A stretch of DNA of 12,422 nt, taken from contig JACNHM010000300.1 in the NCBI GenBank assembly GCA_014383605.1, positions 1 through 12,422 of the forward strand, written 5' to 3'. The position numbers and the translations under genes are program-made. This document shows, in pieces, positions 8,624-11,425 of this stretch (position 1 is its first letter; each line of letters begins with the position of its first letter). Under the pieces are notes generated by a model. The model saw only the letters and a list, made by a program, of their open reading frames with translations. It was not told where the DNA came from and did no database searches. This stretch comes from Chloroflexota bacterium (lineage in GTDB: Bacteria; Chloroflexota; Anaerolineae; UBA3071).

Positions 8624-9997
8624 TCAGCGAATGAACCAGCCGAAGATCAGCCCCGAAAGGGTGCTGAAGACGGTCACCAGCGACACGTAGGTCCACGTCT
8701 TCTTGCGGCCAATCACCGAGTTGGTGATGAGGATAGACTGCAGGCTTAGCTCCGGGTCGGCCAGCAGGTAGGCCAGCAGCGGCCCACGGTGCATGCCCAG
8801 GGCGAGGAAGGTCTGGGCGATGGGCACCTCCACCAGAGTGGGAAAGTACATAAAGACGCCGAACAGTACACCAATGAAGTTGGCCCACACCGTGTTACGC
8901 CCGGCGATGGCTTCGATCCACGTTTTGGGGATGATGGCCCGCGCCATGCCGGCCACAAAGACGCCCACCAGCAGCAAGGGCATGATCTGCTTGACGAAAC
9001 GCCACATCTCCCAGAGCCACTCCTGAAGCTCGTGGGCCTGGAAGCGGGTGGCGGCTACCCACCACACGGCGGCGATGAGCGCCATCTCGGCCAGCAACTT
9101 GCCTGTGACGCCCACGCTCAGGCCGTGTCCTGAGCCTGTCGAGGGGTCACCAGCGACCGCCGCGACTTTGAACGACGCCACGATCAGTGTCAGCGAGACC
9201 AACCCCAGGGCCACGTAGGTCCAACGGTTGAACCCTTCGTCCACGTTGTTCAGCCCCAGCCAGGCAGTGATGGCGATGAGGATCAGCAGGCCGATCAGGA
9301 GCACGCCGTGCACGCTCACGCCCTCGATGCCCAGAGCGGGGTTCGGCGGCACAACACCATCGAGCCAGGCCTGGAGAGAACCAGCCCACGAGCCGGGGAG
9401 TGTGAAGGTAGCGTAGCTGTTCGTGAGCAGGCCCACCTGGAGTGTCCCGGCGATCAGCACGCCCAGCAGCAGGGCGAAGAAGACCCACGTGCGGCCCTCC
9501 ACCTTGGCCTCCTGGGCGAAACCACGTCCGCCGTTGGTGGCCGCATGGTGAGCCTCGTCGTCCTGGCGGAAGAACCAGGCCATCAGCAGGCCGATGGTGA
9601 TGCCGAAGATGATGGAAAGCACGATCCGCGCCAGGGCGATGTCCATGCCGATCTGAACGCCGGTGAAGGAGATGGCCAGGATGTTCACCGCCGGTCCGAC
9701 GAACAGGAAGGTGATTGCCGGCCCCAGGCCAGCGCCCTTCTTGTAGATGCTGGCGAAGAGCGGCATGATGGTACAGGAACAGACCGCCAGCACAAAGCCA
9801 CCCAATGCCGACGCCGGGTAGGAAATCCACTTGGGGGCGTCTCGGCCCAGGTACCTGGTGATGGCTTCCTTGGGAACGAGGGCGGCCAGCGCGCCAGCGA
9901 TAAAGAAGGCCGGCAGCAGGCACAGCAGCACATGGGCCGCCAGATAGGCCGTCAGGCTGCCTAGTCCGGTTTGCAACAGCGTGAGGAAGTAGTTCAC
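8624..9997 (-). CDS. ArsP/COG0701-family permease (DUF318)
   Basis: A 457-residue membrane protein with about ten helices in two halves, each with a conserved gate-like segment. The first half has VCSCTIMPLFASIYKKGAGL (C73, C75) then ITFLFVGPAVNILAI; the second has ANFIGVLFGVFMYFPTLVEVPIAQ and LQSILITNSVIGRKKTW. This is the PF03773 predicted permease family that includes ArsP, an efflux pump for trivalent organoarsenicals; many members have no proven cargo. The GTG start at 9997 has AAGGAG nine bases upstream; no ATG fits better. Odd point: residues 284-295 (DPSTGSGHGLSV) in a loop between two helices come from a palindromic repeat, an in-frame insertion. Downstream the thioredoxin-like gene follows closely. 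An arsR gene lies upstream on the same strand but is separated by a plus-strand unit. Confidence 0.88.
   Translation of the reverse strand: MNYFLTLLQTGLGSLTAYLAAHVLLCLLPAFFIAGALAALVPKEAITRYLGRDAPKWISYPASALGGFVLAVCSCTIMPLFASIYKKGAGLGPAITFLFVGPAVNILAISFTGVQIGMDIALARIVLSIIFGITIGLLMAWFFRQDDEAHHAATNGGRGFAQEAKVEGRTWVFFALLLGVLIAGTLQVGLLTNSYATFTLPGSWAGSLQAWLDGVVPPNPALGIEGVSVHGVLLIGLLILIAITAWLGLNNVDEGFNRWTYVALGLVSLTLIVASFKVAAVAGDPSTGSGHGLSVGVTGKLLAEMALIAAVWWVAATRFQAHELQEWLWEMWRFVKQIMPLLLVGVFVAGMARAIIPKTWIEAIAGRNTVWANFIGVLFGVFMYFPTLVEVPIAQTFLALGMHRGPLLAYLLADPELSLQSILITNSVIGRKKTWTYVSLVTVFSTLSGLIFGWFIR
9113..9148. repeat. Palindromic repeat inserted in frame within the permease gene
   Basis: The core is GCTCAGG (9116-9122), a six-base loop, CCTGAGC (9129-9135), followed by CTGTCGAGGGG. 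It reads as the widespread dispersed repeat with TCGACAGGCTCAGGAC on the minus strand. Its length is a multiple of three and it encodes a Gly/Ser-rich loop, so the frame stays open. Only one copy is in the window; the claim of dispersal is from general knowledge. Confidence 0.6.
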
Positions 9998-10010
9998 TGT
10001 GAAGCGCTCC

Positions 10011-10039
10011 TTGACGGATTTGAGGTTCGCTGGTATACT
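10011..10039 (+). promoter_or_regulatory. Promoter of the Phd/DUF5678-retropepsin unit
   Basis: TTGACG (10011-10016), a 17-base spacer, then TATACT (10034-10039) with an extended -10 TG at 10031-10032. The predicted start near 10046 leaves a leader of about 17 bases to the ATG at 10063. The -35 box overlaps the ribosome site of the divergent permease gene, so the two directions may interfere. Confidence 0.75.
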
Positions 10040-10062
10040 CTTGGTTGAAGCGAGGTGATGCC

Positions 10063-10491
10063 ATGAAACGAATAGTACTGAAAGAATCCCGTGCGCCCTA
10101 TACTTTGGATATCGAGGAAGAGGCGCTTAGCCGGGAACCGTTCATCTTGGAGAGCGATGGCAGAGCCGTGGCTGCCGTGATCCCTATCGCCGACTATCAG
10201 ACCTTTCAGGCTTGGCGGGAAAGCCAGGCCATGGAGGAAAAACGACGTCAAGACCTGGGGGCCTTTGAGCAAGAGCGACGGGCTTTTGAGCGTCTGAAGC
10301 CCGAGCTGCTGCGCATGTATCGAGATCAGTGGGTGGCCATTTACCAGGGAAACGTCGTCGAGGTTGGCCAGGAGCGGTCGCAAGTGCTGGACAGGGTCTA
10401 TGATCGTTTCGGTTATGTCCCCGTCTATGTGCAGCAAGTAGAAGAGCAACCACGCGTCTACAAGTTGCCGCATCGAAGGGTGGTGCGTTGA
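10063..10491 (+). CDS. Phd/YefM-like N-terminus fused to a DUF5678-like domain
   Basis: A 142-residue protein in three parts. Residues about 10-55 (EPFILESDGRAVAAVIPIAD, then YQTFQAWRE) resemble the start of Phd/YefM antitoxins, including the alternation typical of their DNA-binding dimer sheet. Residues 55-85 are a very charged helix. Residues 83-126 (WVAIYQGNVVEVG, then VLDRVYDRFGYVPVYVQQV) match the pattern of DUF5678 proteins, whose function is unknown. The ATG at 10063 has GAGGTGA a few bases upstream; an in-frame ATG at 10045 lies at the predicted transcription start and is rejected. The stop overlaps the next ATG (TGATG), so the aspartic protease is translationally coupled. It may be a regulator or a partner/substrate of that protease. 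Domain calls are by eye. Confidence 0.75.
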   Translation: MKRIVLKESRAPYTLDIEEEALSREPFILESDGRAVAAVIPIADYQTFQAWRESQAMEEKRRQDLGAFEQERRAFERLKPELLRMYRDQWVAIYQGNVVEVGQERSQVLDRVYDRFGYVPVYVQQVEEQPRVYKLPHRRVVR

Positions 10492-10871
10492 TGTGGGCCT
10501 ATGACCAAAGCATTCATCCACCTGCCCTATTTGTAGATACCCTTGTCTCTCGTCCCATCAGCGCCGCTTTGAGCCGACCGCTGCGAGCTCAACTGGACAC
10601 GGCGGCTGACATCTCGTGCATTCCCGCTGACCTTGTTGATCAACTTGGCCTCTTGCCCACCAGCACCATTCTGGCGCAGGGCTACGATGGTGTACAGACT
10701 GTCGTAGACATCTATCTGGTCACCTTGGAAGTAGCTGGTGCCCGATTCCGTTATCTCGAAGTCGTGCCCATTCCAGAGCAGTACGCTCTCCTGGGTCGAG
10801 ATGTCCTCAACCGTTTCTACGCTCAACTGAACGGTCCTGACTTGACCTTCCACCTGAGCACTTCGCCATAG
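10491..10871 (+). CDS. Retropepsin-like (clan AA) aspartic protease, single domain
   Basis: A 126-residue protein. The catalytic motif L35-D36-T-A-A-D40 (AQLDTAADISCIP) and the later hydrophobic-hydrophobic-Gly motif LLGRDVLNRF at 100-109 are the two hallmarks of single-domain pepsin-fold proteases, which act as homodimers like retroviral protease. Length fits a single retropepsin unit. There is no signal peptide or membrane segment, so it should act in the cytoplasm. The ATG at 10491 shares a base with the stop of the upstream DUF5678-like gene, showing coupled translation; a TTG at 10488 is less likely. Bacterial stand-alone retropepsins of this kind have almost no known substrates; the coupled upstream protein is the obvious candidate partner. 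Whether the enzyme is active cannot be told from sequence. Confidence 0.82.
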   Translation: MWAYDQSIHPPALFVDTLVSRPISAALSRPLRAQLDTAADISCIPADLVDQLGLLPTSTILAQGYDGVQTVVDIYLVTLEVAGARFRYLEVVPIPEQYALLGRDVLNRFYAQLNGPDLTFHLSTSP

Positions 10872-10931: not shown

Positions 10932-11276
10932 CTAACCTCTTCGGTTCTGGCACTTGGGGCAAGGACAGTGGGGCAGGGGGCGCACCGGCGACCGGCGGCT
11001 GGCATCCGTCGCCTCCCCTTGCGCCAGCGTCAGCAGCGCCGGCACCCGCTCGTCCGCCAGTTGGTAGAAGACGTATAACCCCTCCTGGCGGTCACTCACC
11101 AGCCCCGCCTGGCGCAGCACAGCCAACTGCTGGGAGATGTACGGTTGCCGCAGGCCCAGCAGCGCTTCCAGGTGGCAGACGCAGGCTTCATCCTGTTCCA
11201 GCGCCTCCAGGATGCGCAGCCGGGCCGGGTGGGCCAGGGCTTTGAAGATCTGTACTGTGCTGGCATGCTCTGTCAT
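10932..11276 (-). CDS. ArsR-family metalloid-responsive repressor (second copy)
   Basis: A 114-residue winged-helix repressor. IFKALAHPARLRILEAL is the first helix pair; C32-V-C34 sits at the metalloid-binding position (ACVCHLEALL), followed by the recognition helix QPYISQQLAVLRQAGLV and the wing RQEGLYVFYQL. The tail adds C104, C106 and C109 (HCPCPKC), so up to five cysteines could bind As(III), Sb(III) or a soft metal. It differs clearly from the arsR at 232-567 in sequence and in the recognition helix. The ATG at 11276 follows AGGAG eight bases upstream; the frame back to 11381 crosses the promoter and is rejected. The gene probably controls itself and, ancestrally, the permease operon on the same strand downstream of the intervening plus-strand unit. 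Confidence 0.9.
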   Translation of the reverse strand: MTEHASTVQIFKALAHPARLRILEALEQDEACVCHLEALLGLRQPYISQQLAVLRQAGLVSDRQEGLYVFYQLADERVPALLTLAQGEATDASRRSPVRPLPHCPCPKCQNRRG

Positions 11277-11315: not shown

Positions 11316-11344
11316 ATTGTACCACGGTAGGGCTGTGCTGTCAA
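11316..11344 (-). promoter_or_regulatory. Promoter of the second arsR gene
   Basis: Minus strand TTGACA (11344-11339), 17 bases, TACAAT (11321-11316): perfect -35 box, one mismatch in the -10 box and ideal spacing. The predicted start near 11309 lies inside the palindromic operator, giving a leader of about 33 bases. Confidence 0.8.
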
Positions 11345-11397: not shown

Positions 11398-11425
11398 TTG
11401 ACAAGTTGGCGATTGTATGTATACT
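11398..11425 (+). promoter_or_regulatory. Promoter of the CsoR-family regulator / OsmC genes
   Basis: TTGACA (11398-11403), 16 bases, TATACT (11420-11425). The predicted start is near 11432 with a leader of about 60 bases to the ATG at 11492. The region just after the -10 box carries dyad and direct repeats that could be the operator of the regulator. Confidence 0.75.

Follow-up and report, generated by a model that had tools for sequence, protein, structure and literature searches.

The window analysed here is the whole 12,422-nucleotide (nt) stretch of contig JACNHM010000300.1 (GenBank assembly GCA_014383605.1) from a Chloroflexota bacterium. On its plus strand lies a compact unit of two small genes, in which a partner protein carrying a DUF5678 domain (PF18929) precedes a retropepsin-like aspartic protease (Table 1). 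The original prediction, made from the DNA letters, saw in the two genes a tightly coupled pair of a Phd/DUF5678-like protein and its protease, possibly a dedicated partnership, and knew of no described system of this make-up. Our analysis confirms the pair as a module that recurs across bacteria (four phyla) and archaea (two groups).

A partner gene and a retropepsin-like protease gene

The single-domain protease called from the sequence is borne out by profile searches. Residues 29-108 match Asp_protease_2 and gag-asp_proteas (PF13650, PF13975) over the curated Pfam cut-offs, and Gly102 is, like the predicted catalytic aspartate, invariant in the 41 aligned sequences. The profile match together with the DT(G/A) and hydrophobic-G-R-D motifs places the enzyme among the retropepsin-like proteases (clan AA, A2-type), and it was assigned the retropepsin fold. 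No Pfam family beyond the aspartic-protease ones matches it at an E-value (E) up to 1, and neither Zn-protease HEXXH nor Xre helix-turn-helix (HTH) domains are among the Pfam matches of the pair at that threshold. By inspection, the protease has no evident membrane or signal segment.

The partner was described as an antitoxin-like N-terminus joined to a domain of unknown function. This description is supported: residues 81-112 match DUF5678 at 29.1 bits against a curated cut-off of 23.2, and AlphaFold2 (AF2), with which partner and protease were modelled as single proteins, gives a beta-beta-alpha-beta arrangement at residues 90-125. The Phd part is not the core and is not kept throughout the family. 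Against the Phd/YefM antitoxin family PF02604 the window protein scores 14.5 bits, under the curated cut-off of 29.8, while a relative (locus L006) passes at 31.7 bits. Two further matches, one of the partner to a PDB sequence (E 0.45) and one to an NCBIfam chorismate mutase model (17 bits against 158), were dismissed as chance.

The stop codon of the partner gene overlaps the start codon of the protease gene, which suggests translational coupling of the two. Rfam gives no match in the window at gathering scores, and PADLOC-DB 2.0.0, which covers anti-phage defence, returns 0 families for either protein at E up to 1.

Table 1. Features of the two-gene unit and its flanks in the window
Feature	Position	Strand	Remark
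Promoter-like site, sigma-70 type	10011..10039	+	TTGACG, 17 nt with TG, TATACT (extended -10); consensus match only
Partner gene	10063..10491	+	142 amino acids: antitoxin-like N-terminus, long helix, DUF5678, tail
Phd/YefM-like N-terminal segment	10063..10227	+	residues 1-55; other types or none in relatives
DUF5678 core	10303..10440	+	residues 81-126; PF18929 match and AF2 model
C-terminal tail of partner	10441..10488	+	residues 127-142; candidate peptide for protease cleft
TGATG stop-start overlap of partner and protease genes	10489..10493	+	from the sequence
Retropepsin-like aspartic protease gene	10491..10871	+	126 amino acids
Predicted catalytic Asp36-Thr37-Ala38	10596..10604	+	from the sequence; Asp36 invariant in 41/41 aligned sequences
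LLGRD motif	10788..10802	+	residues 100-104
Flanking ArsP_1 permease	8624..9997	-	
Flanking ArsR-family repressor	10935..11273	-	parted from permease by the pair

Recurrence of the pair in bacteria and archaea

How general is this arrangement? The genome-wide search for the pair as a unit, proposed with the original prediction, was run from both of its genes. A scan of a genome-contig collection of 84,980 species with the protease alignment led to 22 confirmed loci, in Chloroflexota, Latescibacterota, Verrucomicrobia, Planctomycetota and the archaeal Nitrososphaeria and Thermoproteales; a scan of the same collection with the partner alignment gave no matches. In all 22 loci the same-strand upstream neighbour of the protease is, as judged by eye, a DUF5678-like gene, although a contig end truncates one of these open reading frames (ORFs), L012, and, of those sent to Pfam, three stay under the DUF5678 cut-off (12.0 bits in L005 and 13.3 in L008, with L006 not listed).

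Seventeen genomes selected because they contain the pair gave 150 matches to a wider protease profile, and 104 distinct retropepsin-like frames from 120 of their loci were scored. A DUF5678-like segment lies within 400 nt upstream of 68 of the 104 or is fused to them; for the best-scoring proteases (E up to 2e-20) the proportion rises to 48 of 49, the remaining one standing at a contig edge. Since some of these loci had also served to train the profiles, a test with Pfam families only was run in the 17 genomes. For 33 of 74 PF18929 matches, a same-strand PF13975 match follows downstream at 112-249 nt (33 of 98 PF13975 matches in the reverse count), compared with three PF13975 matches upstream of PF18929 and none on the opposite strand. 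Relatives also show the stop-start overlap: of 67 pairs, 32 overlap by 4 nt and five by 1 nt. The layout is that of a type II toxin-antitoxin operon: two genes, partner first, overlapping. Up to 11 pairs were counted in one genome.

Counting from DUF5678 gives a similar picture. PF18929 is present in 20 of the 21 genomes holding loci L001 to L021 and in 0 of 14 control genomes. In phylum samples that include their centre genome, it occurs in 14 of 101 Chloroflexota (in eight of these 14 only as the N-terminus of enzymes of about 550 amino acids); the figures are 7 of 79 for Planctomycetota and, for the archaeal phylum, 22 of 121 genomes. The PF18929 listings comprise 140 rows, 126 of them distinct, and 89 were made into loci and examined; eight long-enzyme loci and two chance matches were dropped before counting, leaving 79 DUF5678 loci. 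The sub-threshold matches L068 (chance) and L102 (an ABC ATPase) were dropped by eye. In a classification made partly by eye, 53 of the 79 have an intact adjacent retropepsin gene (L039, L051 and L085 being weak or assigned by eye and L107 short), two are fused, four lie in tandem arrays, nine have a broken or degenerate protease, ten lack a same-strand retropepsin, and one, at a contig edge, is undecidable. The 41 loci from evenly drawn genomes, centre genomes excluded, divide into 29 intact, two fused, one tandem, three broken or degenerate, five without a retropepsin and one at a contig edge. Among 101 downstream ORFs, at most two per locus, Pfam (E up to 0.01) finds gag-asp_proteas in 42 and Asp_protease_2 in 42.

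One genome of the Planctomycetota sample goes further and joins the two proteins. Here a single 200-amino-acid ORF (L071) contains both DUF5678 (1.7e-8) and Asp_protease_2 (2.4e-10), and a second ORF of the same genome (L076) fuses the two as well. Could two small genes simply have come to lie near each other, by chance or through a loose neighbourhood in one lineage? By density, about 0.05 such neighbours would be expected among 78 loci, against 55 that are adjacent or fused. The spread over four phyla of bacteria and two groups of archaea, the fusions, the overlaps and the tight spacing also speak against this explanation, which is refuted and has a negligible probability. Neither of the outcomes named at the start as refuting the original prediction was seen: profile similarity is present, and the two genes are neighbours elsewhere too.

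Both families also occur in other settings. Eight Chloroflexota proteins of about 550 amino acids have an N-terminal DUF5678-like segment (L054, L055, L056, L058, L060, L062, L064, L065). Two of them, L055 and L060, are CCA-adding/poly(A)-polymerase-type enzymes by Pfam (PolyA_pol, HD), and the other six were judged by length and N-terminus; enzymes of this type are a second use of DUF5678, without a retropepsin. On the reverse strand, L074 joins a receiver-like domain, recognised by eye, to DUF5678, and its next ORF (763-1467) is not retropepsin-like and has no Pfam match. A single protease is preceded by three tandem DUF5678 matches in L201 (G013:C844). One small genome of the archaeal sample (G308, 1.5 Mb; loci L207, L211, L228, L229) has 17 retropepsin-like matches, several without a DUF5678 neighbour. 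In a subgroup of retropepsins the small gene upstream is of another kind, an 'ATYEG...LP...VPD' type, likewise ending at the protease start (L195:1204-1428; L198:1646-1870, minus strand; L197:1054-1395; L225:1137-1370; L205:1172-1384). The three of these genes submitted to Pfam gave no match; perhaps genes of this type represent a second partner family of retropepsins.

In the window, the pair sits between the ArsR and ArsP_1 permease genes, on the strand opposite to both. Of 121 Chloroflexota genomes searched, 15 contain a relative of the permease. In the five closest (56-60% identity) a same-strand ArsR gene always lies upstream, adjoining the permease in four and separated from it by a methyltransferase-like ORF, recognised by eye, in one; their ORF lists contain no pair between the two genes. 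Since these five relatives have both genes without the pair, it seems to have been inserted into the arsR-permease unit of the window. Between arsR and a CsoR-type repressor gene there are two divergent promoter-like sites, at 11316-11344 (minus) and 11398-11425 (plus), each matching 11 of 12 consensus positions.

Possible relations of partner and protease: restraint, repressor cleavage or activation

What does the partner do? Among 59 partners, N-termini classified by eye are ribbon-helix-helix (RHH)-like in 30, Phd-like in nine, HTH-like in one, of another kind in three, and short or absent in 16. A DNA-binding-type N-terminus is thus recognisable by eye in 40 of the 59, of which, among those sent to Pfam, L006 alone exceeds the cut-off; sub-cut-off matches lend some support elsewhere (CopG_antitoxin, 9.6e-4, in L010; MarR/AbiEi, 1e-4 and better, in L098 and L099). 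What stays constant is DUF5678 plus protease, with a variable N-terminus. Free shuffling of N-termini is not supported, as their classes are clustered on the protease tree. At least 10 changes are required, and well-supported branches alone force one per class. Replacement therefore seems to have occurred, though seldom.

Variation at the N-terminus bears directly on one account of the pair. Under it, a signal would trigger cleavage of a DUF5678 repressor by the protease and derepress the operon, perhaps together with other genes; DUF5678 would serve for docking, and the conserved tail or the linker would be the cut site. The DNA-binding-type N-termini of many partners speak for this logic, as do a conserved tail of low model confidence that could be cut and the precedent of the COG2856 Zn-protease/Xre pairs, which share the two-gene and fused forms and in which proteolytic inactivation of ImmR needs ImmA (PMC2701414). 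A 'protease-controlled repressor' was among the functions first suggested, and it can be only part of the story at most, because the N-terminus varies while DUF5678 and protease stay together. With 16 of 59 partners lacking a recognisable DNA-binding part, repressor cleavage is unlikely as the shared core function. A protease freed by such cleavage should, moreover, be tolerated, yet no intact protease of the close family was seen without a partner apart from the one at a contig edge. We consider this account unlikely.

Partner and protease are inherited as cognate pairs. In 59 of the 68 pairs the protease has E up to 1e-10 and the DUF5678 segment E up to 1e-4. Across these 59, the distance matrix of DUF5678 correlates with that of the protease at r 0.73, rising to r 0.78 among paralogues within one genome. 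When partners are shuffled inside genomes, r averages 0.34 and peaks at 0.55, and none of 2000 shuffles reaches the observed value. Such a correlation speaks for joint inheritance and is not in itself a sign of contact between the proteins. The tail after DUF5678 is conserved too and recurs with differing N-terminal types. In the window protein, model confidence is low from residue 131 on, with predicted local distance difference test (pLDDT) block means of 53 and 46 across residues 131-142. A mere Shine-Dalgarno constraint is disfavoured as the source of this conservation because the codons vary.

Strict pairing would also be expected if the partner were an activator or adaptor, with DUF5678 recruiting substrates or folding the protease, as LbcA does with CtpA, in a housekeeping or stress function. 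A needed partner would account for close proteases always having one. This account fits the naturally occurring fusions, in which DUF5678 sits N-terminal to the protease; the DUF5678-like N-terminus of the CCA-adding enzymes hints at a general binding domain, and additional protein factors are stated to take part in the action of the bacterial A2 peptidases known so far, with CtpA-LbcA cited (PMC11957791). Variable antitoxin-type N-termini, the upstream position of the partner gene and patchy, multi-copy occurrence are more typical of toxin-antitoxin-like modules, and we regard activation as unlikely. The present data do not decide between restraint and activation.

Our preferred interpretation, to which we assign a probability of roughly 0.4, is a two-gene regulated-protease module in which the partner restrains the protease in a toxin-antitoxin- or ImmA-ImmR-like manner. 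The protease would be a cytosolic homodimer, as are other retropepsins, and DUF5678 a dedicated protease-binding domain. The C-terminal tail of the partner may lie in or near the active-site cleft and so keep newly made protease inactive, the partner acting as an antitoxin or as a pro-domain in trans. Its exchangeable N-terminal module (Phd-, RHH- or HTH-like) would bind the promoter of its own operon and tie expression to the amount of free partner. Were the partner lost or degraded, the protease would be released onto a target. A bolder version, a new toxin-antitoxin-like family of bacteria and archaea with a retropepsin effector, a DUF5678 inhibitor, a pseudo-substrate tail and an interchangeable DNA-binding N-terminus, is doubtful; under it, cytosolic aspartic proteolysis would rank as a regulated effector arm of prokaryotes.

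Several observations weigh against restraint by a dedicated inhibitor. DUF5678 is not exclusive to the proteases, because 10 of the 79 loci have no retropepsin on the same strand and the CCA-adding enzymes carry a DUF5678-like segment; conversely, 36 of the 104 retropepsin-like frames, mostly distant ones, have no DUF5678 neighbour. No operator-like inverted repeat was found at the promoter of the pair (9980-10100). The protease has no match in the plasmids or phages searched, and none of 81 pattern-matching stretches in viral contigs was confirmed; the partner has no match in the plasmids searched. Co-inheritance of adjacent genes alone may explain the co-variation. In 28 of 59 partners the pattern [RPE][ST][PG] falls within the final 22 residues (mean 5.8 and maximum 13 in 1000 shuffles), but it was picked after viewing the tails and is absent from the other 31. 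Finally, the DUF5678 core and tail persist beside a broken protease at six loci (L026, L034, L037, L043, L047, L066; in L026 and L037 the partner N-terminus is missing or frame-broken), whereas of 48 intact close proteases with a partner one has a frameshifted-looking partner (L137). The difference, 6 of 61 against 1 of 48, is not significant (one-sided p 0.10). An initial tally, 8 of 64 compared with 1 of 48 (p 0.044), fell, and our confidence was lowered with it, once L089 and L105 were removed because their partners look damaged along with their proteases. The direction gives a weak, non-significant hint that without its partner the protease either is not tolerated or does not function, and it would also fit a partner required for folding.

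Few prokaryotic retropepsins have known roles, and DUF5678 is a family of unknown function. Pairing, fusion and co-variation supply a testable function for DUF5678, that of a dedicated retropepsin partner, and a candidate regulator for the proteases. If the partner is an inhibitor, the pair would constitute a toxin-antitoxin-like family with an aspartic protease effector. Since the enzyme shares the fold of human immunodeficiency virus (HIV) protease, inhibitors and assays of the HIV-protease class may help in testing.

Comparison with known systems

The absence of a described system with this make-up, noted at the outset, extends to the open-licence literature searched: we found no published description of the pair and no link between DUF5678 and retropepsins, 'DUF5678' turning up, among the papers listed, in one on a plant disease. 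The same literature yielded nothing on retropepsin-like or clan AA proteases with toxin-antitoxin systems, nothing on archaeal retropepsin operons and, by title, nothing on this pair under 'protease toxin' with toxin-antitoxin.

The pair resembles type II toxin-antitoxin systems (Phd-Doc, YefM-YoeB, VapBC and RHH types) in its antitoxin-type N-terminus, upstream partner, overlapping genes and multi-copy cognate paralogues. The toxins of such systems usually have folds other than that of a retropepsin-like protease. The pair differs from them in that its effector candidate is a retropepsin-like protease and the Phd match of the window partner is sub-threshold. In the survey of type II systems PMC2701414, searched by terms, no aspartic protease pair was found.

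Among bacterial retropepsin-like enzymes, APRc of Rickettsia conorii (PMC4140852; PDB 5c9b) shares 15% identity with the window protease and is listed as a stand-alone enzyme, whereas the window protease is partnered. RimB (PMC11957791) and RloA (PMC12239564) are, like the window protease, retropepsin-like enzymes encoded in operons with functional partners; RimB removes poly-glutamate, and a RimB-RimK hybrid protein exists (PMC11957791). Their partners are RimA/RimK or RloB/RloC, not DUF5678, and the Pfam families matched by the window protease are others. The clan AA paper PMC2642776 concerns other retropepsins.

The ImmA-ImmR/COG2856 systems (PMC2701414) combine a protease with a DNA-binding partner in two-gene or fused form, in multiple copies in some genomes, and are toxin-antitoxin-like, as is the pair described here. 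ImmA-ImmR has a Zn protease (HEXXH) and an Xre HTH protein in place of the aspartic retropepsin and DUF5678. COG2856 pairs are abundant in phages, in contrast to the DUF5678-retropepsin pair, for which the searched collections of phages, viral contigs and plasmids gave no copy. Within that survey, the COG2856-Xre protease pairs are the nearest analogue of the window pair.
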